Positions 31,448-46,546 of a stretch of 64,000 nucleotides of DNA are shown here, piece by piece (position 1 is the stretch's first letter; the number at the start of each line of letters is the position of its first letter). The DNA lies in NCBI GenBank assembly GCA_018820765.1, contig JAHJNN010000008.1, positions 62,001-126,000 of the forward strand, read 5' to 3'. Source of the DNA: Gammaproteobacteria bacterium (GTDB lineage: Bacteria > Pseudomonadota > Gammaproteobacteria > Burkholderiales > Thiobacillaceae). Both the position numbers and the translations under genes were made by a program. The notes under the pieces are model-generated. The model was not told where the DNA came from, made no database searches, and was given only the letters and a program-made list of their open reading frames with translations.

Positions 31448-31532
31448 TTTTGAAAGAGTGTGCGGGAACGACGGACAATAAGGCATTGTATCCGTTAAAG
31501 TTCCGGCCTTACAGGCAGCAGGGGCAGGGAAC

Positions 31533-32078: not shown

Positions 32079-32106
32079 CGTCCCACTCATCGATAGAGGT
32101 TCGAAC

Positions 32107-32328
32107 ATGCAGTTCATCGACAGAATCCCTTTTATTGTGCTGCTTCTCTCCACGCTTTTCATGTTGGGCGCGCCCTTCGTGCCGGAGCCGCACCTGGTCG
32201 AAAAAATGCGCATGCTGGCGGAGGGAACCCTGACAAAACCGCTCGATATTTTCGACGTGTTCTGGCATCTGTTGCCGGCCACGCTGCTCGCGCTGAAGAT
32301 TGTTCGGCTGAAGCAGGGTAGCCACTAG
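32107..32328 (+). CDS. Small membrane protein, 73 aa
   Basis: Two hydrophobic stretches (about residues 8-25 and 52-66) flank a hydrophilic loop with PEPHLVEKMRML. The gene has an RBS-like AGAGG before its ATG and lies 28 bp after the DUF1415 gene. Similar small proteins exist in proteobacteria near transporter genes; function is unknown. It overlaps the convergent 106-aa gene by 4 bp. Confidence 0.6.
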   Translation: MQFIDRIPFIVLLLSTLFMLGAPFVPEPHLVEKMRMLAEGTLTKPLDIFDVFWHLLPATLLALKIVRLKQGSH

Positions 32329-32645
32329 CCTGCTTGCTTCAGCATCGCGTCCAGCGGCGCTTGCAGCGCCTCGGTCAGACCTGCCATCGTTTCCGCGGCA
32401 ACGCCCTGTGCGGCGAGCGCGGCGGTGATGTCGGCGGGCGTGACGAGAAAGCAGTCTTCGGGCGCGATCGCGACGCCGTTCAGCCAAAGGCTGGGAAAAC
32501 CCTCGCCGTGGGCATCGCGCATCGCGCTGAAAACCACGTCCGGCGTCACCGCGAAATGGCGCGCGAGCACGTCGGCATAGCCGGTATACAAGCTGCAGCG
32601 GCCGCCAGGCGGCTGCTGGGAAATGACCTGCACCTTCAACTTCAT
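32325..32645 (-). CDS. Small Cys-containing hypothetical protein downstream of TauE
   Basis: This 106-aa protein starts one base after the TauE stop, so it is translationally coupled to it. Features are PPGGRCSLYTGYADVLARHF near the N-terminus, GEGFPSLWLNGVAIAPEDC in the middle and a helical tail. A small ferredoxin- or thioredoxin-like fold is possible, but no CxxC is present. I do not recognise the family. Context suggests a role with sulfite or thiol export. Confidence 0.5.
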   Translation of the reverse strand: MKLKVQVISQQPPGGRCSLYTGYADVLARHFAVTPDVVFSAMRDAHGEGFPSLWLNGVAIAPEDCFLVTPADITAALAAQGVAAETMAGLTEALQAPLDAMLKQAG

Positions 32646-32646
32646 A

Positions 32647-33450
32647 TCAGACTCCGATCACGCTCTTGAACAGGATGTAGGTGGCCACCACCACCAGGAA
32701 CCAGGCGAATGCCTTTTTCAGGGTGTCGTGGGAAATGCGCGTCGAAAAGTGGGCGCCGGCGAAGCTGCCGATGATCGTCACCGCCGTGAAGCTGCCCATC
32801 ACAGCGTAATCGATCGGCACGCCGCCCATGTAGCCGGCAAACCCAGCGTAGGACTTGGCGGCGACGATGGCGAGTGAGGTGCCCACGGCGGTCTTCATGG
32901 GGATGCCGGAGAGCAGCACCAGGGCCGGCACGATCAGAAAGCCGCCGCCGACGCCGACCAGCCCGGTGAGCACCCCCACGCCGATGCCGTGCAGTGCGAT
33001 ATGGCCCATGCAGGGCGAGAAGAACGCCCGGCAGCCGTCGATCGCCAGCGTGCCGCCATCGGTGCTCAATGCCCCGCCGGCCGCCGGCACCGCCACCTTG
33101 ACGGGCTTCAGCATGCGCCAGGCCGCGGCGTACATCACCAGGGCGAACAGGCCGAGCTGGATCACCACGGGCGTCAGCAAGCCGAGGCGCGCACCGGCGA
33201 AGGTGCCCGCCACGCCGAACAGGCCGAATACGAAAGCGATCCGGACATCGACCCGCCCGCGGCGCCAGTTGTCCAGGGCGGAAACCGTGGCGGTGACCGC
33301 CACCACGCCCAGGCTCATGGCGATGGCCGACTTCGGCTCCACGTGCAGCAGGTACAGCAGCGCCGGCAGGGCGATGATGGAGCCGCCCGATCCGAACAGT
33401 CCAAGCACCAGACCGGTGACCAGACCGGCGAAAATGGCGGATAACTCCAT
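32647..33450 (-). CDS. Sulfite exporter TauE/SafE family protein
   Basis: This 267-aa protein has about eight to nine membrane helices, with the repeated motif [21 protein letters not shown] at the N-terminus and [20 protein letters not shown] in the second half. TauE/SafE proteins export sulfite, sulfoacetate or other anions. AAGGGGAA lies before the ATG at 33450. It is divergent from the ArsR-rhodanese gene, which probably controls it. Confidence 0.88.
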
Positions 33451-33473
33451 GGTGTTCCCCTTGAGAAAAAAGC

Positions 33474-33502
33474 TTGACGGTGGCTGTGAAGTCCGTTCTA
33501 AT
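33474..33502 (+). promoter_or_regulatory. Sigma-70 promoter of the ArsR-rhodanese operon
   Basis: TTGACG (33474-33479) is separated by 17 bp from TCTAAT (33497-33502), five of six matches in each box. The imperfect palindrome TCAAACGTTCGTTGGA (about 33505-33520) lies just downstream, in a position suited to repression by the ArsR-type protein encoded next. The operator reading is inferred. Confidence 0.6.
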
Positions 33503-33527
33503 AATCAAACGTTCGTTGGAGTATGCG

Positions 33528-34205
33528 ATGGAAAATTCCGGAAGGCAAGTAAAAGATCTGCTGTATGCCCAGGTGGCCCGCATCGGCAAGGCCGTGTGCA
33601 GTCCCAAGCGGCTGGAACTGATCGATCTGTTGTGCCAGGGCGAAAAGCCGGTGGAACGGCTGGCAGCCGAGGCCCAGATTTCGCTCAAGCTCGCCAGTGC
33701 GCACCTGAAGGAATTACGGCAGGCCCATATGGTGGAAGCCCGCAAGGAAGGCAAGAACGTCTACTACCGGCTGACCGGTGAGGCGGTCGCCGACTTCTGG
33801 GTGGCGATCCGTTCGCTGGCGGAAGACCGCTTGCTCGATTTGCGCGCGGCGCTGGCCAAACTGGCCGAACACGCGCACGAACTGACCCCCATGAGCCGCG
33901 AAGAGCTGCTGGCGCGCGCGAAGAACGGCGACGTGGTGGTGCTCGACGTGCGGCCGCCGAGCGAATTCGCCAGCGGCCACTTGCCCTACGCCCAGTCCAT
34001 GCCGCTCGACCAACTGAAAAAACGCCTGGCCGACCTGCCGCGCGACAAGCCGGTCGTCGCCTACTGCCGCGGCCCGTTCTGCCTGATGTCGAAGGAAGCC
34101 GTCGAATACCTGAACCAGCAAGGCTTCCATGCCTTCCGCTTCGAGGACGGCGTGGCCGAATGGCGGGCGCATGGCCTGCCGGTTGAAACCGCGCCTCCGC
34201 TCTGA
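33528..34205 (+). CDS. ArsR-family repressor fused to a rhodanese domain
   Basis: This 225-aa protein has an ArsR-type winged helix (residues 1-105, recognition helix [18 protein letters not shown]) and a rhodanese domain (about 120-225) with the active-site loop YCRGPFC. The classic arsenite-binding ELCVC motif is absent; two Cys (24 and 36) are the sensor-domain candidates. Such fusions may sense persulfide or related sulfane species. I start at ATG 33528 because GGAG precedes it; a longer frame would include the promoter. It opens the seven-gene plus-strand operon. Confidence 0.85.
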
Positions 34206-34249
34206 AAAAGAGTCAGACAACTCATTCAACAACACCAAGGAAAGACGCC

Positions 34250-34705
34250 ATGATCAAAACCCTTGCCGCCCTCTTCGCCAGCCTCGCCCTGATCACCGCG
34301 CCGGTTCACGCCGACGAGAACCCGGCCGTGGTTGACGTGCTGTCCGGCTACATGGACTTCGCCGAATACGGCAGCAGCCTGATCTGGCCGGAACAAATCC
34401 CGAAGGACGACTGGAAAAAAGTCTTCATCGTCGACGCGCGCGACGCCGCCCAGTACGCCAAGGAGCACATCCCCGGCGCGGTCAACATCGACTGGCGGCA
34501 GGCAGTGGCACGCCGCGCCGAGCTGCCGAAGGATCGCATGGTGGTGATGTACTGCAACTCCGGCTCGTTGTCCGCACAGGCGGTGTTCGCCCTGCGTCTG
34601 CTGGGCTACGAAAACGTGAAGGTGCTGCAGGACGGCATCGAAGGCTGGAAAGCCAAGGGCGGCTTCGAGGCCCACGCGCGTGCCAGCCAGCCAGCGGGGC
34701 ACTGA
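34250..34705 (+). CDS. Exported rhodanese-like sulfurtransferase
   Basis: This 151-aa protein has a signal peptide ending near PVHA|DENP and a single rhodanese domain with the catalytic loop MYCNSGSLSAQAV and the C-terminal GIEGWKAKGG motif. It is likely periplasmic and moves sulfane sulfur between thiols. RBS AAGGAAAG precedes the ATG. It lies 44 bp after the ArsR-rhodanese gene. Confidence 0.85.
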   Translation: MIKTLAALFASLALITAPVHADENPAVVDVLSGYMDFAEYGSSLIWPEQIPKDDWKKVFIVDARDAAQYAKEHIPGAVNIDWRQAVARRAELPKDRMVVMYCNSGSLSAQAVFALRLLGYENVKVLQDGIEGWKAKGGFEAHARASQPAGH

Positions 34706-34760
34706 TCAGGGTCATCTCGGGTAACAAAACGTAATTCTGCAAAAATAAGGAGAGAGAACC

Positions 34761-35621
34761 ATGGACTTCGAACAATTCGTACTCGCCCACGAGCCGACCA
34801 TCCGGCTCGGCTTTTTTCTGGGTATCTTCGCCCTGGTCGGCCTCTGGGAGCTTGTGGCACCCCGGCGCGCCCTGACCGTATCCAAGGCCTTGCGCTGGAC
34901 CAGCAACCTCGGACTGGTAGTGCTCAATACCGTGCTGCTGCGGCTGCTCTTTCCGCTGGCGGCGGTCGGTCTGGCGGCCTTCAGCGCGGAAAACGGCTGG
35001 GGCTTGTTCAACCACTTCGATGTGCCGTTCTGGGTGGCGGTGCCGCTGGCGGTGATCGCCATGGACTTCGTCATCTGGGTACAGCACGTCATGGTCCATG
35101 CCGTGCCGGCGCTGTGGCGGCTGCACCGGGTGCACCATGCCGATCTGGACTACGATGTGACCACCGGGGCGCGCTTCCATCCCCTCGAAATCGTGCTGTC
35201 CATGCTGATCAAGTTCGCCACCATCGTCGTGCTCGGGCCGCCGATGGTCGCCGTGGTGATCTTCGAAGTGATGCTGAACGCCACCGCCATGTTCAACCAC
35301 GGCAACATCCGCCTGCCGGCAGGCGTCGACCGCGTGCTGCGCTGGGTGCTGGTGACGCCGGACATGCACCGCGTGCACCACTCGGTGGAAGACGACGAGA
35401 CCAATTCCAACTTCGGCTTCAGCCTCACCTGGTGGGACCGCCTGTTCGGCACCTATCGCGCGCAGCCGCGCGCCGGCCACGTGGGCATGACCATCGGCAT
35501 CCACGGCCACACCGACCCGCGCGAAGTCGACCGCCTGGACGGCATGCTGCTGCTGCCCTTCAAGGGCGAGGTCACGGACTACGCGATCAACCGGCGCAAC
35601 TACTCCGAGGCCGCACAATGA
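34761..35621 (+). CDS. Sterol desaturase/fatty acid hydroxylase family membrane protein
   Basis: This 286-aa protein has about four membrane helices and the His clusters of the di-iron hydroxylase family: HVMVH, HRVHH (first), FNHGN and HRVHH (second, after TPDM). The enzyme probably hydroxylates a lipid chain. A clear RBS (AAGGAGAGAG) precedes the ATG. Its stop overlaps the next start (ATGA). In this arsenic module the substrate could be a lipid carrying the product, but this is inference only. Confidence 0.85.
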   Translation: MDFEQFVLAHEPTIRLGFFLGIFALVGLWELVAPRRALTVSKALRWTSNLGLVVLNTVLLRLLFPLAAVGLAAFSAENGWGLFNHFDVPFWVAVPLAVIAMDFVIWVQHVMVHAVPALWRLHRVHHADLDYDVTTGARFHPLEIVLSMLIKFATIVVLGPPMVAVVIFEVMLNATAMFNHGNIRLPAGVDRVLRWVLVTPDMHRVHHSVEDDETNSNFGFSLTWWDRLFGTYRAQPRAGHVGMTIGIHGHTDPREVDRLDGMLLLPFKGEVTDYAINRRNYSEAAQ

Positions 35622-36595
35622 ACAAGACAGTCCTGCGCATCCTGTTGGGCTTGGTCCTGCTGGTGGCGGTCGGCGCGGCCGTCGCCCTGCGCGAGCATTT
35701 CGATGCCGCCGCCCTGCAGGCCTGGGTGGAAGGCGCCGGCGCCGCCGGGCCGCTCGTGTTCATGGCCCTGTATGCACTGGCCACCGTGCTGTTCCTGCCC
35801 GGTTCGGTGCTGACGCTTGCCGGCGGCGCCCTGTTCGGCCCCGTCTGGGGCACGCTGTGGAACCTCACCGGCGCCACCCTCGGTGCGTCACTGGCCTTCC
35901 TCATCTCCCGCTACCTGGGCGCCGACTGGGTCACGCGCCGCGCCGGGCCGCGCCTGCAGCGGCTGAACGACGGCGTGACGTCGGAAGGCTGGCGTTTCGT
36001 CGCCTTCGTGCGGCTGGTGCCGGTGTTTCCGTTCAACCTGCTGAACTATGCGCTCGGCCTCACCCGCATTCCCTTCGTCGCCTATGTGCTCGCCTCGTGG
36101 GTGTTCATGCTGCCGGGTGCCTTCGCCTACACCTGGCTCGGCTTCGCCGGACGCGAGGCGCTGGGCGGCGGCGAAGGCATGATCCGCAACATCCTCATCG
36201 CGCTGGCCCTGCTGGCTGCCGTGGCCTTCCTGCCGCGCTTCGTGCGCAAGCTGCGGGAAAAACCCATGCTGGCCGTGGACGCGCTGAAGCAGCAACTGGA
36301 TGCCGGCGACGCGGTGCTGATGCTGGACGTGCGCTCCGCCGCCGAATTCACCGGCGAGCAGGGCCACATCGCCGGCGCGCGCAATGTCCCGCTCGATGAA
36401 CTGGCCGGGCGCCTGGCCGAACTGGAAGACTTCAGGCAGCGCCCCATCCGCCTGCTCTGCCGCACCGACCGCCGTTCCGCCCAGGCCGCGCGGCTGCTGG
36501 CCGAGGCCGGCTTCGCCGACGCCCAGGTCATCCAGGGCGGCATGACGGCGTGGCGCACGAAAGGCTGGCCGGTGCAAGGCGCCACCCCGCCGTAA
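35618..36595 (+). CDS. VTT/DedA-type membrane protein fused to a rhodanese domain
   Basis: This 325-aa protein has a TVP38/TMEM64 (VTT) membrane domain (residues 1-215) with FLPGSVLTLAGGALFGPVWG and FVRLVPVFPFNLLNYALG, and a C-terminal rhodanese (about 225-325) with active-site loop LLCRTDRRSAQAA. VTT proteins move lipids or are linked to selenite/metal handling. The fusion is found with sulfur and selenium genes. The start at 35618 overlaps the desaturase stop. Confidence 0.85.
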   Translation: MNKTVLRILLGLVLLVAVGAAVALREHFDAAALQAWVEGAGAAGPLVFMALYALATVLFLPGSVLTLAGGALFGPVWGTLWNLTGATLGASLAFLISRYLGADWVTRRAGPRLQRLNDGVTSEGWRFVAFVRLVPVFPFNLLNYALGLTRIPFVAYVLASWVFMLPGAFAYTWLGFAGREALGGGEGMIRNILIALALLAAVAFLPRFVRKLREKPMLAVDALKQQLDAGDAVLMLDVRSAAEFTGEQGHIAGARNVPLDELAGRLAELEDFRQRPIRLLCRTDRRSAQAARLLAEAGFADAQVIQGGMTAWRTKGWPVQGATPP

Positions 36596-36613
36596 CATTA
36601 TTCGGAAATCACC

Positions 36614-37657
36614 ATGTACGACCTCGTCAAAGACTACTACGGCAATCAACTGAAGGGCACGGCCGATCTGCGCACTTCTGCCTGCTGCGACGCCAGCCAG
36701 ATGCCGGACTGGCTCAAACCCCTGCTCGCGCGCATCCACCCGGATGTGATCGCACGCTACTACGGCTGCGGCCTGGTCTGTCCGACCCTGCTCGACGGAC
36801 TGAAACTACTCGACCTCGGCTGCGGCTCCGGCCGCGACGTCTACGCCCTCGCGCAACTGGCGGGCGAAGCGGGTGAAGTGGTCGGCGTCGACATGACCGA
36901 GGCGCAACTGGCCGTCGCCGAGGCGCACCGTGAACACCATCGGCAGGCCTTCGGCTACGCCCGCGACAACGTGGCGTTCCGCCTCGGTTACATCGAGCGC
37001 CTGGACGAGTTGGGATTCGAAGACGCCCGTTTCGACGTGGTCGTCTCCAACTGCGTGGTCAACCTCTCGCCGGACAAGGACGCCGTGCTGCGCCAGGTTC
37101 ACCGCCTGCTCAAGCCCGGCGGCGAACTCTATTTTTCCGACATCTACGCCGACCGCCGCGTGCCGTCCGAACTGCGCGACGACCCGGTGCTCTACGGCGA
37201 ATGTCTGGGCGGAGCCCTGTACTGGAACGACTTCCTGGCGCTGGCCCGGCGCGCGGGCTTCGCCGATCCGCGCCTGGTGGAAGACCGTCCCATCGCCATC
37301 ACCGACCCGACCCTGGCGGCGCGGGTGGGCAACATCCGCTTCCATTCCGCCACCTATCGGCTATTCAAGCTGGACGGCCTGGAGCCCGAGTGCGAAGACT
37401 ACGGCCAGGCGGTGATCTATCGCGGCGGCATCCCCGGCCAGGAACAGCGCTTCGTCCTCGACAAGCACCACGCCATCGAGGCTGGGCGCGTGTTCCCGGT
37501 GTGCGGCAACACCTGGCGCATGCTGCGCGACACCCGCTTCGCGCCGTATTTCGATTTCATCGGCGACTTCTCGCGGCATTACGGCATCTTCGCCGGCTGC
37601 GGCGGCGGCCTGCCGTTCGATGACCAAGCGGCGGGCACAGCTTCCTCGTGCTGCTGA
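36614..37657 (+). CDS. arsM: ArsM-like arsenite S-adenosylmethionine methyltransferase
   Basis: This 347-aa protein has the SAM motif LDLGCGSGRDVY and the ArsM hallmark SNCVVNLSPDK. Candidate As(III)-binding Cys are 24, 52, 147 and 197. Spacing between 147 and 197 (50) and between 24 and 52 (28) equals that of the four Cys of the algal ArsM (44/72 and 174/224, from memory). A C-terminal part of about 100 residues follows, ending in a Cys pair (SSCC). It would methylate As(III) to mono- and dimethyl forms. It lies 18 bp after the VTT-rhodanese gene. Confidence 0.88.
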   Translation: MYDLVKDYYGNQLKGTADLRTSACCDASQMPDWLKPLLARIHPDVIARYYGCGLVCPTLLDGLKLLDLGCGSGRDVYALAQLAGEAGEVVGVDMTEAQLAVAEAHREHHRQAFGYARDNVAFRLGYIERLDELGFEDARFDVVVSNCVVNLSPDKDAVLRQVHRLLKPGGELYFSDIYADRRVPSELRDDPVLYGECLGGALYWNDFLALARRAGFADPRLVEDRPIAITDPTLAARVGNIRFHSATYRLFKLDGLEPECEDYGQAVIYRGGIPGQEQRFVLDKHHAIEAGRVFPVCGNTWRMLRDTRFAPYFDFIGDFSRHYGIFAGCGGGLPFDDQAAGTASSCC

Positions 37658-37687
37658 AAGCAACCATGGACAGACAAGGAGCCGCCC

Positions 37688-38431
37688 GTGAACGACACTT
37701 TCGGTGCAAGTGACAAGCGCTTTTCCTGGCCCGCCTTGCTGGGCCTGATCGCCGCCGCGTCCGCGATCGGCGCCCTCGTGGCGGAGGGCATCGGCACCCG
37801 GCAGGCATGGTGGCACTTCAGCCGCGGCATTACGATTGCCGAGTGGGCGGCCTACGGCGCCGGACTCGCGCTCGTCCTGTCGCTGATCGGCTTGATCCAG
37901 GTGTGGCCGGGCGCGAGGCGGCGCGGTTTTGTCCCAGCCACCCTGGGCGTGCTGCTGGCCCTGCCGCTGGCGGTGATGGCCGTCCAGTGGGAATACGCCG
38001 CCCGCAGCTATCCGCCGATCAATGACATCAGCACCGACATCGAAGACCCGCCGGTGTTCTGGGACATGCCCACGCCTACCGACTATCCGGGCGGAGAAAA
38101 GGCCGAGTTGCAGCGCGCTGCCTATCCCGACCTGGCGCCGCTGGTGCTGGCGATGCCGGCTGACAAGGCATTTGCTGCGGCGCTCGCGCTGGTGGAAAGC
38201 CGGGGTTGGGAGATCGTTGCCAAGGTGCCGGAAGAAGGCCGCATCGAGGCCACCGCGAGCTCGCGGCTCTTCGGCTTCAAGGATGAGGTGATCGTGCGCG
38301 TTGTAGCGGAAAATGGCGGCGCCAAGGTCGACGTGCGCTCCCGTTCTCGCCTTGGGCTCATTGATCGCGGCGTCAATGCCAAGCGGATTCGTGCCTATCT
38401 CGCGGACCTGAAGCGGCGCGCGGCGACTTAA
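37688..38431 (+). CDS. DUF1499 domain-containing membrane protein
   Basis: This 247-aa protein has about three N-terminal membrane helices (residues 16-105) and a DUF1499 domain with INDISTDIEDPPVFW and VDVRSRSRLGLIDRGVNAKR. The function of the family is unknown. It lies 30 bp after arsM and 3 bp before the PiT gene. Confidence 0.8.
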   Translation: MNDTFGASDKRFSWPALLGLIAAASAIGALVAEGIGTRQAWWHFSRGITIAEWAAYGAGLALVLSLIGLIQVWPGARRRGFVPATLGVLLALPLAVMAVQWEYAARSYPPINDISTDIEDPPVFWDMPTPTDYPGGEKAELQRAAYPDLAPLVLAMPADKAFAAALALVESRGWEIVAKVPEEGRIEATASSRLFGFKDEVIVRVVAENGGAKVDVRSRSRLGLIDRGVNAKRIRAYLADLKRRAAT

Positions 38432-38434
38432 GCG

Positions 38435-39562
38435 ATGACCTGGAGCCTCGCCCTGGTGCTGCTCGGCGCCCTGTGGCTGGCCTGGAGCAACGGCGCCAAT
38501 GACAACTTCAAGGGCGTGGCCACGCTCTACGGGAGCGGCGTGCTCGGCTATCGCAGTGCGCTGTGGCTGGCGGCGATCGCCACGCTGGCGGGCAGTCTGC
38601 TTTCAGTGTGGCTGGCCAACGGCCTGGTGCAAACCTTCAGCGGCAACGGCCTGCTGAGTTCCGGCGCGATGACGCCTGCCATGCTGGCCGCGGCCGGGAT
38701 CGGCGCCGGCGCCACGGTGCTGCTCGCCACCTGGTTCGGCATGCCCACGTCTACCACCCATGCGCTCACCGGCGCGCTGCTGGGCGCCGCGCTGTCGGCG
38801 CACGGCAGCGTGAACTGGGCGGTGCTCGGCGGCAAGTTCGTCCAGCCGCTGTTGCTGAGCCCGTTGATCGCTATCGCCTCGACCATGGTGCTGTATTACG
38901 CGCTGCACCGGCTGCGCGTGGCCCTGGGGCTGGGCATGGACAGTTGCCTGTGCGTTGGAGAGAAGCGTGAAGCAGTGGCCGGCTTCTTCGCGCCGGTTGC
39001 AGCGGTCGCCGCCGCGCCCTCTCTGGAAGTTGCACAGGGAAGGCTGGCGAGTTGCTCAGCGCGCTACGGCGGCCGCTTCGTCGGCGTGGACGTGGATTCG
39101 GCGGTGAACGCGCTGCATGTGCTGAGCGCGGGCAGCGTCTGCTTCGCCCGTGCCGTCAACGACACCCCCAAGATCGCCGCCCTGCTGCTGGCGGGCGCCG
39201 TGGGCGGTGCGCTCGATGCGGAGTCGGCGCTTGTGCTGGTCGCAGCAGTGATGGTGTTGGGCGGGCTCATCCAGGCGCGGCGCGTGGCCGAGACCATGAG
39301 CCATGGCATCACAGCGCTCAATCATGGCCAAGGGCTTTCCGCCAACTTGGTGACCGCCGGGCTGGTGCTGGGCGCCTCCAATTTCGGCCTCCCGGTTTCC
39401 ACCACGCACGTCGCAACCGGCTCCATCTTCGGCATCGGCGCGGTCAACGGCAAAAGCGACTGGCGCACCATCGCCCGCATCCTGCTGACCTGGGCGGTGA
39501 CCCTGCCTTTGGGCCTGGTGCTGGGCGCGGGCGTGTTTCGAGTGCTTGTCGCGCTGGGTTGA
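38435..39562 (+). CDS. PiT-family inorganic phosphate transporter
   Basis: This 375-aa protein has ten or so membrane segments with the PiT signatures WSNGANDNFKGVATLYGSG at the N-terminus and ASNFGLPVSTTHVATGSIFG near the C-terminus, plus TWFGMPTSTTHALTGALLG. PiT carriers bring in phosphate with protons, and arsenate as well. Placed next to arsM, it may replace arsenate-leaky phosphate uptake or move an arsenic compound (inferred). Its end is convergent with the SelD-fusion gene, 18 bp apart. Confidence 0.88.
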   Translation: MTWSLALVLLGALWLAWSNGANDNFKGVATLYGSGVLGYRSALWLAAIATLAGSLLSVWLANGLVQTFSGNGLLSSGAMTPAMLAAAGIGAGATVLLATWFGMPTSTTHALTGALLGAALSAHGSVNWAVLGGKFVQPLLLSPLIAIASTMVLYYALHRLRVALGLGMDSCLCVGEKREAVAGFFAPVAAVAAAPSLEVAQGRLASCSARYGGRFVGVDVDSAVNALHVLSAGSVCFARAVNDTPKIAALLLAGAVGGALDAESALVLVAAVMVLGGLIQARRVAETMSHGITALNHGQGLSANLVTAGLVLGASNFGLPVSTTHVATGSIFGIGAVNGKSDWRTIARILLTWAVTLPLGLVLGAGVFRVLVALG

Positions 39563-39580
39563 GGAGGCGCGGACGGGCGC

Positions 39581-41866
39581 CTACCAGACGAGAGCGATGG
39601 GCTCGATGGCCTCGCTTCGGGGCAGTACGCGGCCGATGCGGGCGGCGTGGACGTAGCCCAGGCGGTGCAGTTCCGCGAGGCAGTCGTCCGCCCGCTCCGC
39701 CGGCACGCCGGCGAGCAGGCCGCCGGCGGTCTGCGGGTCGAACAGCAGGAGATAGGCGGGATGAGCTAGCGCTGCTTCCTGGTTGCGCAGGGCGCGCCGC
39801 AGGCGCGCGTTAGCGGGCTGCAGGGAACTGAGGATGCCTTCCGCCGAGGTTTCCCGGGCGCCTTCGAGCAGGGGCAGCGCGCCCATATCCAGTTCCGCGT
39901 CCACGCCCGAGGGCTTGGTCATCTCGACCAGATGGCCGAGCAGGCCGAAGCCGGTCAGGTCGGTGCAGGCGCGGGCGCCGTGGGCGATCAGGCAGGTGGC
40001 GGCGGCGCGGCTGGAGACCTGCATCGAAGCGAGCGCGGCGTCGATCCAGCGGCCCTTGGCGGCCAGCCGCATGTGCGCGGCGAAGAGGGTGCCGGTGCCG
40101 ATGGGCTTGGTGAGGATGAGCGCGTCGCCGGGGCGCAGCCCGCCCTTGGTCATCGCGGTCGCCAGGGACGCGTCGACGAGGCCGTTGACGGCGAAGCCCA
40201 GCGCCAGCTCGCGGCCTTCGCCGGTGTGGCCGCCGACCAGCGCGCAACCGGCTTCGTTCAGCACCGACACGGCGCCGGACATCATCTGGAACAGAGTGTC
40301 TTCCACCTTGGCTTCCAGCCCCGGCGGCACGGTGGCGATGGCGGCGGCGGACTGCGCTTCGGCCCCCATGGCGAACACGTCGCCCAGGGCATGATTCGCG
40401 GCGATGCGGCCGAATACCCAGGGGTCGTTGACGAAGGCGCGGAAAAAATCCACGGTCTGCACCACTGCCTTGCCCGGCGGTACGCGCAGCACGGCTGCGT
40501 CGTCGGGGTCGGCAAGGCCGATGAGCACGTCGTCGCGCGCGACCGGCTCGACCCGTGCGAGCGCGCGCGACAGTACGCTGGCGCCGACCTTGGCGCCGCA
40601 GCCGCCGCAGCGCATGGCGAGCGCGGAGATCGCCTGGGTCTTTTCGCTTGCTTCGAGCGGGATCGCCGCGGCTTCGGGTTTGGACTTGGTCTCGGCATCG
40701 TCCATGGCGGGCAAGTCGTCGAAGCGCCTCATGAAGCGGCGGTCGATCCAGTCCTTCCAGCGCCACACCCAGTCGCCGCGCGCGAACAGGGCGCCGCGCG
40801 AGGCGATGGCATGGCGGTCGCCGGTGCTGATCAGCGCGAGCCAGCGGCGCTGCGGCCGGTAGGGTTTGAGCGGCTGGTCGAGCACGGCGCGGCGCAGGTT
40901 GTCGGCGAGCACCGGACCCATGCGCACGGCGAACACGCCGGCCTTCTCGAGGGGGTGGCCGATCATCGACGCGCAGTCGCCGGTGGCAAAGATGCGCGGG
41001 TCGGTTTCGGTTTGCAGGGTGTCCGCCACGCGGATGAAGCCGGCGTCGTCGAGTGCGAGGCCAGTACAGGCGAGCCACGCGGCGCCGCCGGCCTGGGTGA
41101 CCCAGATGGTTTCGTCCGCCGCCACGGTGTCGCCGCGCCGGGTTTTCAGGGTGCCTGTACTGACCTCCACCACTTCCGCGTCGCGGTGCACGACGATGCC
41201 GCGTTCGGTCAGCACGCCCTCGAAGATACGGCGCACGGCGCGGTTATGGGTGGGCAGGATGTTGGCGTCGGCGCCGAACAGATGCACGGACAGCGTGTCC
41301 GGGTCGCGGCCCTGCGCCCGGATTTCCTGGCGCAGGCGGGTATGCAGCGACAGGGCCATTTCGACGCCGCCGGCGCCGGCGCCGACCACGGCGAGGGTGA
41401 AGCTGCCCGGATGCGTGCGCACCCGTTCCACGAGATCGCGCAGGCGCCGGGTGAACTGGCGGATGGGTTTGACCGGCACGGCGTTGGCGTCGGCACCGGC
41501 CACGTCCGCCAGGTGCGGCGTGGAGCCGATGTTGATGGAGAGCAGGTCGTAGGCCACCGGCGGATGGTTGCGGCAGATCACCCGCTGTGCGGCGCGATCG
41601 ATACCTACTGCTTCGTCCTGGTAGTAGCGGGCGCCGGCGAATTCGGCCAGGCGGCGCACGTCGATGTGCACGTCCTCGCAGCTGTAGTGGCCGGCGATGA
41701 AGCCGGGCAGCATGCCCGAGTAGGGCGTTTCGGTGTCGGTGCAAATCAGCGTGAGGCGCGCGCCGGGCAGCGGGTTCATCGCCCACATGCGCAACACGAC
41801 CACATGGCTGTGGCCGCCGCCGATCAATACGATGTCCCGCAATACGGGGCTTTCAGTCGCTTGCAT
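39581..41866 (-). CDS. selD: FAD oxidoreductase-selenide, water dikinase (SelD) fusion
   Basis: This 761-aa protein has an N-terminal NDH-like pyridine nucleotide-disulfide oxidoreductase (residues 1-390; FAD loop IGGGHSHVVV, second loop VGAGAGGVEM, FATGDCA) and a C-terminal SelD domain from about 415, with RCGGCGAK at 419-426 (catalytic Cys 423 and Lys 426 by alignment to the E. coli enzyme, from memory). SelD makes selenophosphate from selenide and ATP. The fused domain probably reduces a selenium species or supplies selenide. It is the last gene of the minus-strand operon, 47 bp after the glycosyltransferase. Confidence 0.93.
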   Translation of the reverse strand: MQATESPVLRDIVLIGGGHSHVVVLRMWAMNPLPGARLTLICTDTETPYSGMLPGFIAGHYSCEDVHIDVRRLAEFAGARYYQDEAVGIDRAAQRVICRNHPPVAYDLLSINIGSTPHLADVAGADANAVPVKPIRQFTRRLRDLVERVRTHPGSFTLAVVGAGAGGVEMALSLHTRLRQEIRAQGRDPDTLSVHLFGADANILPTHNRAVRRIFEGVLTERGIVVHRDAEVVEVSTGTLKTRRGDTVAADETIWVTQAGGAAWLACTGLALDDAGFIRVADTLQTETDPRIFATGDCASMIGHPLEKAGVFAVRMGPVLADNLRRAVLDQPLKPYRPQRRWLALISTGDRHAIASRGALFARGDWVWRWKDWIDRRFMRRFDDLPAMDDAETKSKPEAAAIPLEASEKTQAISALAMRCGGCGAKVGASVLSRALARVEPVARDDVLIGLADPDDAAVLRVPPGKAVVQTVDFFRAFVNDPWVFGRIAANHALGDVFAMGAEAQSAAAIATVPPGLEAKVEDTLFQMMSGAVSVLNEAGCALVGGHTGEGRELALGFAVNGLVDASLATAMTKGGLRPGDALILTKPIGTGTLFAAHMRLAAKGRWIDAALASMQVSSRAAATCLIAHGARACTDLTGFGLLGHLVEMTKPSGVDAELDMGALPLLEGARETSAEGILSSLQPANARLRRALRNQEAALAHPAYLLLFDPQTAGGLLAGVPAERADDCLAELHRLGYVHAARIGRVLPRSEAIEPIALVW

Positions 41867-41913
41867 TCAACACCCTAATCCGTCATGAGACAACGAGCGG
41901 CTCAAGCATACCG

Positions 41914-42531
41914 TTATACAACCCGGAAGCCGGGAATGGCGCCGCGCAACAGGTCGGCGGGCTCGTCGATGTCGCTGAGCGTGTCGCCCACCCACACTTT
42001 CCAGCCCAGGGCCGCGAGGCGTTTGAGGGTGAGATCGGCGACCGCCGGGGTGCTCCACGGCATGTCCTCGAACAGGCTGGCGTCGAAGGCGCGCAAGCCC
42101 AGCAGCGGATAGCCGCCATCCGCGGCCGGGTACAGAACGGCGTCATGCCCGGCCAGCTCGGCGGCGGCGAGGCGCAGGCGGGCGGCGCTGAGGTCGGGGC
42201 AATCCGTGCCGGTCAGCAGCACCGCCTCGCCCCGCGCGACGGCGCGTTGCGCGGGACGGGCCATGCGCGCGCCGAGATCGCCTCCGCCCTGATCGCTGAC
42301 GTCGATGCCGGCCGGGAACGGGATGCCCGTCCACTCGGGCGCATCCGGCGCCGGGCTCATGCACAGCTCCACCGGGCCGACGGTGGCTGTGAGCGCCTGC
42401 GCCAGTGCCCGATCGAGCATGCGCGCCGCCAGTTGCGCCGCCCCCGCTGCGCCCAGCACCGGAATGAGGCGGGTCTTGACCCGGCCCGGCACGGGCGCCT
42501 TGGCGAAGATCACGATGCGGACAGGCGTCAT
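41914..42531 (-). CDS. rSAM/selenodomain-associated transferase 1 (TIGR04282-like glycosyltransferase)
   Basis: This 205-aa protein starts MTPVRIVIFAKAPVPGRVKT and has LLTGTDCPDLSAARL and AADGGYPLLGLR, fitting the TIGR04282-type nucleotidyl/glycosyltransferase family often found with ArsS. It overlaps transferase 2 upstream by ATGA. Its sugar donor and acceptor are unproven; it may decorate an arsenosugar. Confidence 0.85.
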   Translation of the reverse strand: MTPVRIVIFAKAPVPGRVKTRLIPVLGAAGAAQLAARMLDRALAQALTATVGPVELCMSPAPDAPEWTGIPFPAGIDVSDQGGGDLGARMARPAQRAVARGEAVLLTGTDCPDLSAARLRLAAAELAGHDAVLYPAADGGYPLLGLRAFDASLFEDMPWSTPAVADLTLKRLAALGWKVWVGDTLSDIDEPADLLRGAIPGFRVV

Positions 42532-43217
42532 GACTCGGCGTGGTAGCGCAAAACCAGCCGTGCCGGCGGCACGCCGCGCCAGTAGTCGAAACGTAGCCGC
42601 CACATGAGCAGGATGGTGCGCCAGACGCCGTGCCTGTCCCAGCGCCGGCCCGAGGTCGCGACCCGCGCGCGCAGGCAGGCCGGCGGACCGAGACGCTTCA
42701 GGCGCTTCGACAGTTCGATGTCTTCCATCAGCGGCTGCTCCGGAAAGCCGCCCGCCGCTTTGAAGGCGGCACGCGTCACAAAAATCGCCTGATCGCCGGT
42801 GGCGATGCCGGTGAGGCGGGAGCGCAGATTCATCGACGTCGCGATGACCGGCAGCCAGGCCGAACGGCCTGCGATCGCCACATCGAAGCGGCCCCAACTG
42901 TGGCCGGCGAGCGCCCGTTCGACGAGCGCGGGCGCGTGCGGCGGCAGGCGGGTGTCGGCGTGCAGGAACAGCAGCGTCCTGCCGTGAGCCTCGGCCGCGC
43001 CGGCATTCATCTGGCGGGCCCGTCCGCACGACGCTTCCAGCACGCGGTCCGCCAGGGGCCAGGCTGCGGCCCGCGTGCCGTCGCTGCTGCCGCCGTCGAC
43101 GACGATCACTTCCGCGCCGCTTTCCCTGAGCGGCGCCAGCGCCGCGAGCGCCGCAACGATTTCCGTCGACTCGTTCAGCACCGGCATGACGATGGAGAGT
43201 TGCGGCCGGGGGCTCAA
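42528..43217 (-). CDS. rSAM/selenodomain-associated transferase 2 (TIGR04283-like glycosyltransferase)
   Basis: This 229-aa GT-A (family 2) protein has LSIVMPVLNESTEIVAALAA, VVDGGSSDGT, FLHADTRLPP and GDQAIFV, matching TIGR04283-type proteins. I start at TTG 43217, which overlaps the DUF3047 stop as TTGA; no ATG lies at the proper place, and the next ATG would cut the first strand of the fold. The gene is followed by transferase 1 with ATGA overlap. Confidence 0.82.
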   Translation of the reverse strand: MSPRPQLSIVMPVLNESTEIVAALAALAPLRESGAEVIVVDGGSSDGTRAAAWPLADRVLEASCGRARQMNAGAAEAHGRTLLFLHADTRLPPHAPALVERALAGHSWGRFDVAIAGRSAWLPVIATSMNLRSRLTGIATGDQAIFVTRAAFKAAGGFPEQPLMEDIELSKRLKRLGPPACLRARVATSGRRWDRHGVWRTILLMWRLRFDYWRGVPPARLVLRYHAES

Positions 43218-43933
43218 CAGGCTTCGTCCTTGCCGACAAAGCGGAAATCGGCGAAACCGGCGCGTGCCGTTTCGCCGGTGTTGTCGGTATCGCTGGCGAG
43301 GGCCAGACCGGTGAGGCGGCCTGGCGCATGGCCGAAGGCGTGCCGGAAGTCGGCGGCGACGTCGCGGCGCTCGTCCACCCAGCGTCCGGCGTGACTTGCG
43401 CCGGATCGCAGCACCAGCATGCGTGTGTGCCTGGAATAGACATTGGTTTGCCAGGTGCCGACCGCATGGCGGTTGTCCCAGATGTAGTTGATTGCCACAT
43501 CCGGCACCGGCCTGCCGCGCAGCGAGCGCGTCAGCTCCTGCCTTATGCGGGAGCCGCGCCCAAGCGTCCCGGGCGATACGTCGAAGCCGAGATGGATGTG
43601 GGCGGCATAATCGTCGCCGGTCCGGGCCGTCATGTCGGCGCTTTTCAGAGGCGCGTCGATGCGCCAGCGCCAGCACAGCACCGGCGTCGCGGCGAGGTCG
43701 ATGTCCAGCGGCCGCGCCAGCAGCGCCATGCTCTTCACTGCATGGGCTTCGACGGCCGCGACGCCGTCCCATTCGCGCAGGCGATAGCGGGTCGGCGGAA
43801 TGTCCTGGTCCAGTTGCACGACGCGCCAGGGCGGCGGCAGGCCGTCGTCCGCGGGGGGAAAGCGGCCCACCCAGACCGGATCAGCCAGACCGATCGCCGG
43901 CAACAGCGCCGCCAGCGGAAGCAGGCGTTTCAT
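43214..43933 (-). CDS. DUF3047 domain-containing exported protein
   Basis: This 239-aa protein has a signal peptide ending near GLA|DPVW and a DUF3047 domain with VLCWRWRIDAPLKSADMTAR, AHIHLGFD, NYIWDNRHAVGTWQTNVYS and a C-terminal TGLALASDTDNTGETARAGF. This last stretch resembles jelly-roll sugar-binding domains. The function is unknown. The ATG at 43933 overlaps the oxidoreductase stop, and the stop overlaps the TTG of transferase 2. Confidence 0.8.
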   Translation of the reverse strand: MKRLLPLAALLPAIGLADPVWVGRFPPADDGLPPPWRVVQLDQDIPPTRYRLREWDGVAAVEAHAVKSMALLARPLDIDLAATPVLCWRWRIDAPLKSADMTARTGDDYAAHIHLGFDVSPGTLGRGSRIRQELTRSLRGRPVPDVAINYIWDNRHAVGTWQTNVYSRHTRMLVLRSGASHAGRWVDERRDVAADFRHAFGHAPGRLTGLALASDTDNTGETARAGFADFRFVGKDEAC

Positions 43934-45408
43934 CCTCGCCACGCGCCCCGTCTCCAGGTATGGAAACGCTCGACCCAGCGCAGCAGTCTTTCCGGCGCAT
44001 GCGCCTTCTTCCACACGCCGGCGGCGTACTTGTTGGCCTCCGCCAGCGTCGGATAGATGTGGATGGTGCCGAGGATCTTGTTGAGCCCGATGCCGTGCTT
44101 CATCGCCAGCACGTATTCTGCGATCAGGTCGCCGGCATGCTCGCCGACGATGGTGACGCCGAGAATGGTGTCCTTGCCCGGCACGGTCAGCACCTTGACG
44201 AAGCCGTGCGCCTCGGCATCGACGATCGCGCGGTCGAGCTCGGCGAGGTCGTAGCGGCTGATCTCGAAAGGAACGCCTTTCTCCTTCGCCTCCTGCTCGT
44301 TGAGGCCGACGCGCGCCACTTCCGGATCGACGAAGGTCGCCCACGGGATCACCGAATAGTCGGCCTTGAATTTTTTGAACGGATCGAACAGGGCGTTGAC
44401 CGCCGCATACCAGGCCTGATGCGCGGCGGTATGGGTGAACTGGAACGGTCCGGCGACGTCCCCCGCCGCATAGATGTTCGGGTAGTTGGTCTGCAGGAAG
44501 GCGTTGGTGCCGATCGTGCGCGACGTTTTCACGCCCAGTTCCTCCAGCCCGTAGCCTGCGAGGTTGGCGGCGCGGCCGACGGCGACCAGCACGGCGTCGA
44601 AGGGAATGCGCACGTCGTGACCATCGTGTTCGGCGACCAGGGTCTTCTCGCCGTTCTCGATGAGGAACTGCTTCGCCTTGTGTTCGACCCGCACGTCGAT
44701 GCCCTCGTCGCGAAAGCGTCGGGTCACGAGTTCGGACACCTCAGGATCTTCGCGATTGAGGATGCGCGGTCCCTGCTGGAGCAGCGTCACCCTGGCGCCG
44801 AAGCGGGCGAAGGCCTGGGCGAGTTCGGCGCCGATCGGCCCGCCGCCCAGTACCACCAGACGCCGCGGCAATTCGCGCACATTCCACACCGTATCGGAGG
44901 TGAGATACCCCGTCTCTTCGATGCCGGGAATCGGCGGCACGAAGGGCCGCCCGCCTGCCGCGATGACGATGCTGCGTGTGCTCAGCCGCTGCGTGCCGCC
45001 ATCGTGGCGGACGACGTCCACTTCCCAGGGCGACACGATCTTCGCCGTGCCTGCGATCACCTCGACGCCGAGGCCGCTGTAGCGCTCGGCCGAGTCGTGC
45101 GGTTCGATCGCCTGCACCACGCGCTGCACGCGCTCCATCACGTCGGCGAAGTCGAATTCGGCATGGGCTTCGCGGATGCCGAATTCCTTCGCGCGCGCCG
45201 CCTGCGACAGGAATTTCGCCGAGCGGATCAGCGCCTTCGAGGGCACGCAGCCGGTGTTGAGGCAGTCGCCGCCCATCCTGTGCTTCTCGATCAGCGTGAC
45301 CTTCGCCTTGAGCACGGCGGCGATATAGGCCGTCACCAGCCCGGCCGAGCCGCCGCCGATCACCACCAGATTGCGCTCGAAGCGGCGCGGTTTTTTCCAG
45401 CGGCTCAA
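43930..45408 (-). CDS. FAD-dependent disulfide oxidoreductase (mercuric reductase/lipoamide dehydrogenase-like)
   Basis: This 492-aa class I flavoprotein has the FAD loop VIGGGSAGLVTA, redox Cys 49 and 54 in GGDCLNTGCVPSK, NAD loop VLGGGPIGAELAQ, and the C-terminal TIHIYPTLAEANK. It lacks the N-terminal HMA domain and the C-terminal Cys pair of true mercuric reductase. The C-terminal His-Glu dyad of lipoamide dehydrogenases is not clear either, so the substrate is probably another disulfide or metalloid thiol. Start TTG 45408 overlaps the ArsS stop (TTGA). Confidence 0.85.
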   Translation of the reverse strand: MSRWKKPRRFERNLVVIGGGSAGLVTAYIAAVLKAKVTLIEKHRMGGDCLNTGCVPSKALIRSAKFLSQAARAKEFGIREAHAEFDFADVMERVQRVVQAIEPHDSAERYSGLGVEVIAGTAKIVSPWEVDVVRHDGGTQRLSTRSIVIAAGGRPFVPPIPGIEETGYLTSDTVWNVRELPRRLVVLGGGPIGAELAQAFARFGARVTLLQQGPRILNREDPEVSELVTRRFRDEGIDVRVEHKAKQFLIENGEKTLVAEHDGHDVRIPFDAVLVAVGRAANLAGYGLEELGVKTSRTIGTNAFLQTNYPNIYAAGDVAGPFQFTHTAAHQAWYAAVNALFDPFKKFKADYSVIPWATFVDPEVARVGLNEQEAKEKGVPFEISRYDLAELDRAIVDAEAHGFVKVLTVPGKDTILGVTIVGEHAGDLIAEYVLAMKHGIGLNKILGTIHIYPTLAEANKYAAGVWKKAHAPERLLRWVERFHTWRRGAWRG

Positions 45409-46373
45409 GTCCGGACTCCCGCTTCGTCCAGCGCGCCGCCGCAACTGCTGCCTTGGCCGGCGGTGCAGCCGTAACAGTGGTCGGCGATCCGGATGGGCTG
45501 TCCGCTCACCTCATGGGCCAGCAGGTCGGCCAGCGTGGTCGGCCCGGGCAGGGACAGTCCCAGCATCTGGTTGAAGTCGCAGTCGTAGAGACGCCCGCGC
45601 CAGTCCACGCTGACCAGCTCCCGGCACATGACCTGTTCGAGGTTGTCGGGGTTGTGGCTGGACTTGAGCAGCTGCATGTAGCCGGCGAATTCCCCCCTCG
45701 ACACCAGCGTGCTGCCGAAGCGCAGGATGGGCATGTTGGCCAAGCTGTAGAGCCGGTTGAAGACGATGCCGTAGCGGGCCTGCAATTCCTGTTTGTAGGC
45801 GGCTTCCAGGCCGGCCTGGGCCGGCGGCAGGCTGGGGCCGAGCGGGTTGTAGACCAGATTCAGGTCCAGCCCGCTGCCCGCCTGCCCGTAGCCCAGGGCG
45901 TTGAGCTGCATGAGGCCGGCGATGCTGCGCTCGAACACCCCCTTGCCGCGCTGCCCGTCGACGTTCTCCTCCAGGTAGCACGGCAGCGAAGCCACGACTT
46001 CGACGCCCTGCGCGGCGAGGAAATCAGCCAGATCGTCCTGGCCCGGCTCGGACAGGATGGTGAGATTGCAGCGGTCGACCACCCGGGTTCCCAGCGCCCG
46101 CGCTTCGCGCACCAGCCAGCGGAACCGCGGATGCAGTTCCGGCGCGCCGCCGGTGAGGTCCAGCATGGCGAGGCCGCGCGCCGCCAGCACGCGCGGGATG
46201 CGCTCCACGTTGGCGTCGTCCATCGCCTCGGTGCGGTTCGGGCCTGCGTTGACGTGGCAGTGCAGGCAGGTCTGGTTGCAGCGGTAGCCCAGATTGACCT
46301 GCAGGGTGGCGAGGCGGCCGCGGCGCAGCGCGGGAAAATCCGTTGCCTGAAGAAGGGGTAAGGTGTTGTGCAT
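45405..46373 (-). CDS. arsS: Arsenosugar biosynthesis radical SAM protein ArsS
   Basis: This 322-aa radical SAM protein has CNQTCLHC (Cys 32, 36 and 39), the SAM-site stretch LTGGAPELHP, and the C-terminal Cys-rich selenodomain CYGCTAGQGSSC (Cys 300, 303 and 311). The tail is Cys-containing, not Sec. ArsS adds a 5'-deoxyadenosyl group to dimethylarsenite, giving the precursor of arsenosugars. I start at ATG 46373 on family grounds (MHNTLPLLQATDF); an in-frame ATG also exists at 46409. First gene of the minus operon. Confidence 0.9.
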   Translation of the reverse strand: MHNTLPLLQATDFPALRRGRLATLQVNLGYRCNQTCLHCHVNAGPNRTEAMDDANVERIPRVLAARGLAMLDLTGGAPELHPRFRWLVREARALGTRVVDRCNLTILSEPGQDDLADFLAAQGVEVVASLPCYLEENVDGQRGKGVFERSIAGLMQLNALGYGQAGSGLDLNLVYNPLGPSLPPAQAGLEAAYKQELQARYGIVFNRLYSLANMPILRFGSTLVSRGEFAGYMQLLKSSHNPDNLEQVMCRELVSVDWRGRLYDCDFNQMLGLSLPGPTTLADLLAHEVSGQPIRIADHCYGCTAGQGSSCGGALDEAGVRT

Positions 46374-46546
46374 GGGACAGCGAACGGGCGTATTGCGCGA
46401 TAGGTACATTTTGCACCAGGCCCGCGCGCTTGCGCGGATTTCCGTAGGAAGAGGTGCGAGACATCAGGGTGTCTACGTCGATTCGCGCTATTGCCGATTT
46501 TGCGTGGCGCGGCGATCATTCGGGCAGCCCTGAAGGAACAACCCTC

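Follow-up and report, generated by a model that had tools for sequence, protein, structure and literature searches.

Arsenosugars and arsenolipids are major forms of organic arsenic in aquatic life, and the activity on record in the literature for the radical SAM enzyme ArsS is the transfer of 5-deoxyadenosyl to dimethylarsenic. Two glycosyltransferase families, TIGR04282 and TIGR04283, presumably owe their older name "selenodomain-associated" to ArsS, the selenodomain being, as we take it, the Cys/Sec-rich domain within ArsS. According to the available part of a 2020 review (PMC7533571), where bacterial arsenolipids come from is an open question. In the available portions of the literature covered, which included PMC12159101, PMC10456119, PMC13077682, PMC8801600, PMC11237643, PMC3597751, PMC13171826 and PMC5029168, we found no assignment of bacterial steps beyond ArsM and ArsS. 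Likewise, no hydroxylase, VTT protein or DUF3047 protein tied to ArsS appeared among the matches listed (the best 20 of 423, 20 of 53 and 10 of 49 in some searches), a scope that left subscription journals mostly outside. A fusion of a FAD protein (COG1252-like) to SelD was described in a 2008 selenium survey, as far as its available text goes (PMC2432076).

The window, by which we mean the whole 64,000-nucleotide stretch analysed here, holds a locus in which two operons converge. Gene calling and Pfam/NCBIfam searches recovered 15 of 15 genes at the coordinates, and in the families, given by an earlier sequence-only reading. The 18-bp convergent gap that it described was also confirmed (39563-39580, between a plus-strand PHO4/PiT permease gene and a minus-strand FAD-SelD gene). 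The genes inside its span of 32325..46373 stand, but the right edge moves from 46373 to about 48300, because a SAM methyltransferase gene (47662-48300, plus strand; PF08241) and a pair encoding a 186-aa protein (46547-47107, plus; apparent signal peptide by eye, no family match) and a TlpA-like thiol-disulfide protein (47085-47642, plus; PF00578/PF08534) recur in a few loci. The methyltransferase gene lies near ArsS in loci L049, L080 and L084 and occurs in 8 of 80 hydroxylase loci; L049 carries 12 of the window's gene families inside about 14.5 kb. The 5' ends of the methyltransferase, oxidoreductase and TIGR04283 genes were set by homology and not by a start codon. Homologues of the 186-aa protein are found in L049, L095 and L168, and a TlpA-like gene adjoins its gene in L095 and L168. 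Across the window there were no RNA families at gathering scores, and promoter and terminator patterns showed no excess over shuffles.

At the level of protein families, this is very probably an arsenosugar biosynthesis locus. ArsS (45405-46373, minus strand), a Cys form, passes the TIGR04167 cut-off (450.9 vs 300 bits), and its radical SAM CX3CX2C motif (C32/C36/C39) is conserved in 97% or more of 70 sequences. The TIGR04282 CofC/FbiD-like transferase (41914-42531, minus; 197.6 bits, cut-off 134; PDB 3cgx match) and the TIGR04283 GT2 glycosyltransferase (42528-43199, minus; 273.7 bits, cut-off 182) had been regarded as unexplained by the arsenosugar pathway; at annotation level this view is not upheld, since NCBIfam calls both arsenosugar biosynthesis glycosyltransferases. 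In L065 the two are fused into one protein. ArsM, the arsenite methyltransferase (36614-37657, plus; PDB 5evj, 351.8 bits), has five cysteines, C24, C25, C52, C147 and C197, that are invariant across 23 sequences and some of which we take to be known arsenic ligands; it falls outside the NCBIfam AsSugarArsM subtype NF038099 (89.5 bits vs a cut-off of 400). Across 59 ArsS loci, TIGR04282-like genes recurred in 45, TIGR04283-like genes in 40, ArsM in 19, the oxidoreductase in 15, the hydroxylase in 14, the VTT-rhodanese in 9 and other module genes in at most 6. No further recurrent ArsS neighbour, such as an adenine-removing enzyme, emerged from 94 other ORFs (94 of 107 selected, from crude ORF calling; best 25 of 140 and of 456 families), among which no Pfam family had more than 5 members. 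Pfam and NCBIfam recognised no adenine-removing enzyme among the module proteins either. At the E-values used, FAD-SelD, DUF3047 and DUF1499 were all missing from the genome of Synechococcus elongatus, a control with ArsS.

The accessory gene tied most tightly to ArsS is that of a membrane di-iron hydroxylase (34761-35621, plus). The protein matches PF04116 (102.6 vs a cut-off of 31 bits), and ten histidines (H109, H113, H122, H125, H126, H140, H180, H203, H206 and H207) are invariant in 43 hydroxylase sequences. It scores well below the curated cut-off for the ornithine lipid hydroxylase OlsE (89.5 vs 475 bits), and no solved relative was found by sequence or fold (best PDB match of the model, E 2.4; model pLDDT 89.7). 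Among 229 genomes of the window's class, ArsS was present in 71 of the 78 that carry this hydroxylase clade, and with one genome per family in 53 of 56 (OR 40, p 2e-16). The phylum sample, counted by genus, gave the same direction, with ArsS in 27/46 hydroxylase genera vs 9/90 others (OR 12.8, p 3e-9). The hydroxylase is not required for ArsS, since 46 of 117 ArsS genomes lack one at 400 bits or more and 20 of 117 lack one even at E 1e-40.

These counts bear on whether the two operons are merely adjacent, brought together by a shared lifestyle and a chance neighbourhood, a reading that we strongly disfavour as improbable. What speaks for it is that ArsS co-occurs with DUF1499 and DUF3047 too (OR 6.9 and 6.7), which points to a lifestyle background, that the convergent layout is uncommon, and that hydroxylase and ArsS show weak clustering beyond the class. 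Of the 30 class-sample pairs of hydroxylase and ArsS less than 20 kb apart, 29 share one strand, the window being the sole exception, and 8 of 10 named loci with both genes do so as well; opposite strands in L102 and L136 led us to drop the idea that the convergent layout is unique to the window. Outside the class, the clustering did not recur clearly: of 82 same-genome pairs, 3 lay less than 20 kb apart where 1.1 would be expected, all in one genus. Against chance, however, 28 pairs lie within 20 kb in the class sample, window genome excluded, where about 1.5 are expected, with a closest spacing of 68 bp. Furthermore, ArsS adjacency changes repeatedly on the hydroxylase tree (19 changes needed, of which well-supported branches force at least 10), and the odds ratio is still 15.7 after stratification by DUF1499. 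Other ArsS neighbours showed no comparable recurrence, nor did window ORFs of at least 150 aa outside 31500-48400: in 159 loci of ArsS, hydroxylase or related type, none came up more than 3 times at E 1e-15 and 40% coverage, which is stricter than the E 1e-8 applied to module genes. The window genome also holds a second hydroxylase-ArsS pair, with a hydroxylase from another clade. The sequence-only reading had staked the link between the operons on co-occurrence beyond chance; within the class, the hydroxylase, VTT-rhodanese and DUF3047 do accompany ArsS beyond chance, so the two operons are not merely neighbours.

Immediately downstream of the hydroxylase gene lies that of a VTT (TVP38/TMEM64-like) membrane domain fused to a rhodanese (35618-36595, plus; PF09335 + PF00581). 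Of 41 full-length VTT-rhodanese genes, 40 were found within 1 kb of a hydroxylase and 16 no more than 20 kb from ArsS. The left part of the locus encodes an ArsR-type HTH fused to a rhodanese (33528-34205, plus; PF01022 + PF00581), a rhodanese with an apparent signal peptide by eye (34250-34705, plus; PF00581, 76.5 bits), a TauE/SafE membrane exporter (32647-33450, minus; PF01925, 160.5 bits) and a small Cys protein of 106 aa without Pfam, NCBIfam or PDB match (32325-32645, minus). Homologues of the small Cys protein adjoin TauE/DsrE or ArsR-rhodanese in L093, L095 and L157, and TauE is also close to ArsS in L049 and L084. A CxC-type metal site in the HTH is one of the arsenic sites of arsenic-sensing ArsR proteins; this was absent from 8 aligned ArsR-rhodanese sequences, in all of which a YCRGPxC loop is invariant. 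The ArsR-rhodanese is likely a sulfane-sulfur responsive regulator.

These features suggest another explanation, possible but on balance rather improbable, in which a sulfane-sulfur or envelope-stress unit, made up of hydroxylase, VTT-rhodanese and ArsR-rhodanese along with TauE, DsrE and IscS, modifies ordinary membrane lipids and accompanies the arsenosugar genes only because both respond to thiol/arsenic stress. In 80 named hydroxylase loci, ArsR-rhodanese occurred in 39, DsrE in 15 and plain rhodanese in 6, vs ArsS within reach in only 10, on contigs that are often short; the nearest partners of the hydroxylase are thus sulfur-type genes. The HTH without CxC fits this explanation, as do L095, where the hydroxylase unit sits among DsrE, TauE, IscS-like and flavoprotein genes, and the phylum sample, where hydroxylase and ArsS co-occur yet mostly lie apart. 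It accounts less well for L031, L048 and L063, which have the hydroxylase beside ArsS without the window's rhodanese and TauE genes in the stretch examined, or for L037, L043, L064 and L089, in which the hydroxylase sits between the two glycosyltransferase genes next to ArsS.

The remaining genes differ in their ties to ArsS. DUF3047 (43214-43933, minus; PF11249, 218.5 bits; apparent signal peptide by eye) is linked to it, with 7 close pairs vs 0.7 expected; the 16 DUF3047 loci taken as unlinked were chosen with earlier results known and are a weak control. A single-sequence structure model of DUF3047 was unusable (pLDDT 30.7). DUF1499 (37688-38431, plus; PF07386), which the earlier reading had included, is weakly linked: its closeness to ArsS is not above chance (2 vs 1.2 expected; 4 vs 1.3 near the hydroxylase), and we rejected it as a core member. 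The pyridine nucleotide-disulfide oxidoreductase (43930-45384, minus; MerA/Lpd-like) scores 510.5 bits against NF004991, below the cut-off of 620. A possible role of the PHO4/PiT permease (38435-39562, plus; PF01384, 198.9 bits) is arsenate/phosphate uptake; a partial match to PiT, over 36% of the query, adjoins ArsS in L039, L050 and L057.

The FAD oxidoreductase-SelD fusion (39581-41866, minus; TIGR03169, 508.1 bits, over its cut-off) belongs to SelD by TIGR00476 (286.7 vs a cut-off of 125 bits). SelD proteins carry an N-terminal Cys/Lys loop, and alignment revealed a CGGCGAK loop in the fusions of the window, L171 and L091. The product might be a selenium-containing sugar or lipid, with FAD-SelD as selenium donor enzyme, an explanation that we regard as very improbable. 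A canonical SelD, separate from the fusion, is also encoded in the window genome, which may leave the fusion free for another use. Besides the window, ArsS has FAD-SelD, or the FAD half of it, no more than 4 kb away in two class genomes (G121 and G213), and L091 has FAD-SelD near ArsM and the hydroxylase. As a linked partner of ArsS, however, FAD-SelD held up weakly: the association over all 229 genomes (22/30, OR 3.0, p 0.01) was not significant with one genome per family (OR 2.1, p 0.17; 1 close pair vs 0.2 expected), and the fusion was the sole SelD found in 19 of 26 other genomes examined. Selenoneine (Sen) clusters are marked by SenA/SenB families, and none resembling these was among the matches listed for 19 module proteins (best 25 for three). 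The window ArsS has Cys, and no inner stop was seen among the over-cut-off class matches listed. With a separate canonical SelD and Cys in ArsS, a selenium product is poorly supported; of the proposed "arsenic- or selenium-containing sugar or lipid", a lipid-type arsenic product remains plausible.

Taken together, an arsenosugar locus plus an envelope/lipid branch is the best explanation, which we hold tentatively, at a shade below even; for the lipid branch itself the prospects are about even. Judging from family membership and conserved residues, ArsM would methylate arsenite and ArsS would add 5-deoxyadenosyl to dimethylarsenic. The adenine would then be removed, the TIGR04282 protein may act as a nucleotidyltransferase that converts arsenoribose to a nucleotide sugar, and the TIGR04283 GT2 enzyme may move the activated arsenoribose onto glycerol or a lipid as acceptor. 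Within the membrane, the di-iron hydroxylase would work with its VTT partner to modify the lipid-linked product and translocate it, the oxidoreductase could supply electrons or thiol reduction, PiT could bring in arsenate, and the ArsR-rhodanese might make expression depend on sulfane sulfur or on thiol state. The hydroxylase-VTT pair most likely acts on a lipid-linked arsenosugar and is probably sulfur-regulated. Because both often accompany ArsS in other bacteria, they are candidates for the steps from arsenosugars to arsenolipids, and the hydroxylase clade, carried by 53 of 84 ArsS genomes at one per family, gives the arsenolipid question named genes. A bolder proposal, which we consider somewhat unlikely, is that the hydroxylase and VTT-rhodanese are dedicated sulfur-regulated machinery for converting the arsenosugars made by ArsS into (thio)arsenosugar lipids of the membrane and for carrying these lipids across it, as a general bacterial arsenolipid route.

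Compared with the FAD-SelD fusion in the available text of PMC2432076, both halves here pass NCBIfam cut-offs, and the gene is an extra copy inside an arsenosugar locus. The hydroxylase resembles the FA_hydroxylase/sterol desaturase superfamily (e.g. OlsE) in its PF04116 domain and His clusters, whereas the window clade is tied to ArsS. Oxidoreductase homologues are fused to a VTT domain in L041, L102 and L172, and the C-terminal part of these VTT-FAD oxidoreductase fusions is what the window protein aligns to; in the window the oxidoreductase is separate, and VTT is fused to rhodanese instead. With the known arsenosugar genes (ArsM, ArsS, TIGR04167/TIGR04282/TIGR04283) the locus shares ArsS and both glycosyltransferases above curated cut-offs and a clear ArsM, but this ArsM falls outside the NCBIfam arsenosugar subtype, and the window adds the hydroxylase, VTT-rhodanese, ArsR-rhodanese, DUF3047 and oxidoreductase.

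Gene coordinates and family matches bore out the position and strand of every gene named in the sequence-only reading, as well as the end-to-end meeting of the plus- and minus-strand gene sets across an 18-bp gap (39563-39580). In three adjacent pairs, hydroxylase/VTT-rhodanese, TIGR04283/TIGR04282 (the two glycosyltransferase genes) and oxidoreductase/DUF3047, the genes overlap by 4 bp, as in operons. The hydroxylase, a membrane di-iron protein of the FA_hydroxylase superfamily (PF04116; plus strand, 34761-35621), has its closest named relatives among betaproteobacteria (Rhodocyclales, Burkholderiales, Rubrivivax, Thiobacillus), the best six at 81-86% identity. The window genome (G000) measures 3.44 Mb in 18 contigs. 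To the right of the module's former edge at 46373, a methyltransferase, TlpA and a 186-aa protein (46547-48300) turn up again in the vicinity of certain ArsS or hydroxylase loci.

ArsS (450.9 bits against an NCBIfam cut-off of 300), TIGR04282 (197.6 against 134) and TIGR04283 (273.7 against 182) are alike named arsenosugar biosynthesis proteins by NCBIfam, and therefore the glycosyltransferases, previously held to be unexplained, are explained as annotation, although we found no paper demonstrating their function. The one solved relative of TIGR04282 was 3cgx, a putative nucleotide-diphospho-sugar transferase (E 0.001), and PMC8801600 gives the name fbiD to one TIGR04282 gene. ArsM matched solved arsenite methyltransferases with up to 351.8 bits, and its C24, C25, C52, C147 and C197 are retained in 23/23 sequences; C32, C36, C39 and seven more cysteines of ArsS are retained in at least 97% (n=70 sequences). 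According to PMC12159101, which refers to the ArsS study, a radical SAM enzyme adenosylates arsenic during the biosynthesis of oxo-arsenosugars.

ArsS was present in 117 of the 229 class genomes searched (114 above cut-off and 3 with sub-cut-off pieces). It accompanied the hydroxylase clade (at least 400 bits) in 71 of 78 genomes (odds ratio 23, p 1e-19) and, with the hydroxylase at E 1e-40, in 97/113. When one genome per family was kept and the window genome excluded, 53/56 hydroxylase genomes had ArsS (odds ratio 40); this set held 158 genomes, 84 with ArsS, and the 131 checked by family were all different. In a second, phylum-level sample (n=259 genomes), which is weighted towards one large family, ArsS was found in 79/110 hydroxylase genomes and in 27/46 hydroxylase genera (odds ratio 12.8, p 3e-9). 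Because DUF1499 and DUF3047 co-occur with ArsS too (odds ratios 6.9 and 6.7), lifestyle accounts for part of any co-occurrence; after stratifying by DUF1499, the hydroxylase-ArsS odds ratio is still 15.7.

Thirty hydroxylase-ArsS pairs lay within 20 kb in the class sample, the window genome contributing two; the remaining 28 compare with about 1.5 expected under random gene placement in a 3-Mb genome, and all expected numbers assume a single genome size and take no account of phylogeny. Of these thirty, 29 are same-strand, and the window is the sole exception. Full-length VTT-rhodanese (41 copies in 40/229 class genomes) lay at most 1 kb from the hydroxylase in 40/41 copies and at most 20 kb from ArsS in 16/41, the window counted, and 36 of its 40 genomes had ArsS. 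DUF3047 was close to ArsS in 7 pairs against 0.7 expected (p 1e-5; 6 against 0.5 with one genome per family). FAD-SelD, a fusion of an FAD oxidoreductase and SelD, gave 2 against 0.3 (p 0.04; 1 against 0.2 per family, not significant), and DUF1499 gave 2 against 1.2 (2 against 0.8 per family), neither significant. In the class, the expectation that plus-strand genes co-occur with arsS beyond chance held for the hydroxylase and VTT-rhodanese, and the closeness of DUF1499 to ArsS was not above chance.

In the phylum sample this closeness was not clearly repeated: outside the window genome we found 82 same-genome pairs, 9 sharing a contig, and 3 within 20 kb against 1.1 expected, all from a single genus. 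The class and phylum counts together therefore indicate that co-occurrence is general and clustering mainly a class feature. The weak closeness in the phylum sample also slightly raises the strongest rival, in which the hydroxylase unit would be a system for sulfur/envelope stress that merely accompanies arsenosugar synthesis, and so slightly lowers our confidence in an arsenosugar locus with an envelope branch; the module link itself is real and above chance. On the hydroxylase tree, whose bootstrap is not fully settled, the ArsS-adjacent label (24/113 rows) required 19 changes, of which well-supported branches force 10 or more, against 22 for shuffled labels, and ArsS adjacency is therefore only mildly clustered. 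The window genome has a second ArsS, 71% identical by tblastn (about 9520-10431 of L031, G000:C1:124700-137874); a hydroxylase from a different clade (8554-9390) lies 136 bp from it, and this 13-kb stretch yielded no further module gene.

Other genomes have 115 ArsS places above cut-off; within 10 kb of 59 of these, chosen from among the better-scoring ones, we counted TIGR04282 45 times, TIGR04283 40, ArsM 19, oxidoreductase 15, hydroxylase 14, VTT-rhodanese 9 (part of the matches covering the VTT portion), ArsR-rhodanese 6, DUF3047 4, methyltransferase 3, DUF1499 and TauE 2 each, the 186-aa protein and TlpA 1 each, and FAD-SelD 0. One locus (L049) held twelve gene families of the window inside about 14.5 kb, and in four (L037, L043, L064, L089) the two glycosyltransferase genes flank the hydroxylase. 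Named hydroxylase loci numbered at least 583; the top-scoring 80, selected by hydroxylase alone and many on short contigs, had ArsR-rhodanese in 39, VTT-rhodanese in 25, DsrE in 15, ArsS in 10 (8 same-strand; L102 and L136 opposite), and an IscS-like gene and the methyltransferase in 8 each. TIGR04283 and TIGR04282 share a single reading frame in L065, as do VTT and oxidoreductase in L041, L102 and L172; the latter fusions couple a plus-operon-type VTT domain to the minus-operon oxidoreductase. Window ORFs of at least 150 aa outside 31500-48400 recurred at most 3 times among 159 fetched loci, under stricter thresholds than for module genes, and the most frequent Pfam families in a set of 94 further ORFs neighbouring ArsS had only 5 members each. 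Sixteen of 20 fetched DUF3047 loci had no other module gene, a weak control, since they were picked with DUF3047 neighbourhoods already seen; oxidoreductase and VTT genes occurred without ArsS in L199, L200 and L201, and with it in L204.

In a Thiobacillus locus (L095), hydroxylase and VTT-rhodanese lie amid DsrE, TauE, an IscS-like gene and ArsM, with a flavoprotein resembling SQR by eye, a ferredoxin-flavin reductase and a multihaem cytochrome. A PiT-type permease, a possible arsenate importer, directly adjoins ArsS in L039, L050 and L057, the last two from the same genus. A Campylobacteraceae hydroxylase frame (L159, 7412-8260) contains one stop codon.

The window's FAD-SelD passed both half-models and retains the CGGCGAK loop, and its genome elsewhere encodes canonical SelD (431.4 bits), SelA and MnmH. 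Twenty-nine other genomes have the FAD part, and SelD was sought in 26 of them (G038, G171 and G225, omitted, were below cut-off). It was matched in 24: the fusion was the sole SelD in 19, G154 and G218 had both, and G107, G074 and G108 had FAD part and SelD separate; G157 and G213 gave no SelD match. PMC2432076 proposed reduction of a selenium compound as the role of the FAD part. FAD-SelD or its FAD half adjoins the cluster in G121, G213 and L091, and the FAD half adjoins DUF3047 in G107 and G074; we read this as an occasional passenger. At the latter two loci (L199 in G107, L200 in G074), the FAD half lacks SelD and is accompanied by oxidoreductase and VTT genes, and no ArsS above cut-off was found in either genome; this set is perhaps a separate cassette.

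Our best explanation, which we rate just short of an even chance, is an arsenosugar locus with a hydroxylase-VTT envelope/lipid branch. From their families, ArsM would carry out the methylation step and ArsS the adenosylation step; adenine would then be lost, TIGR04282 may provide nucleotide activation and TIGR04283 the transfer step, the hydroxylase might oxidise a membrane-bound product, and the VTT protein could serve in translocation. Lipid scrambling is known for proteins of the VTT type. The His clusters of the hydroxylase are invariant in 43 sequences, and its structure model is confident (pLDDT 89.7). The rhodaneses, the DsrE-type neighbours and the ArsR part of ArsR-rhodanese, which is without CxC, suggest sulfur-linked regulation or a thio-arsenical. 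In the literature searched, we found no description of the link of hydroxylase and VTT-rhodanese to ArsS; the arsenosugar names of the glycosyltransferases are already known.
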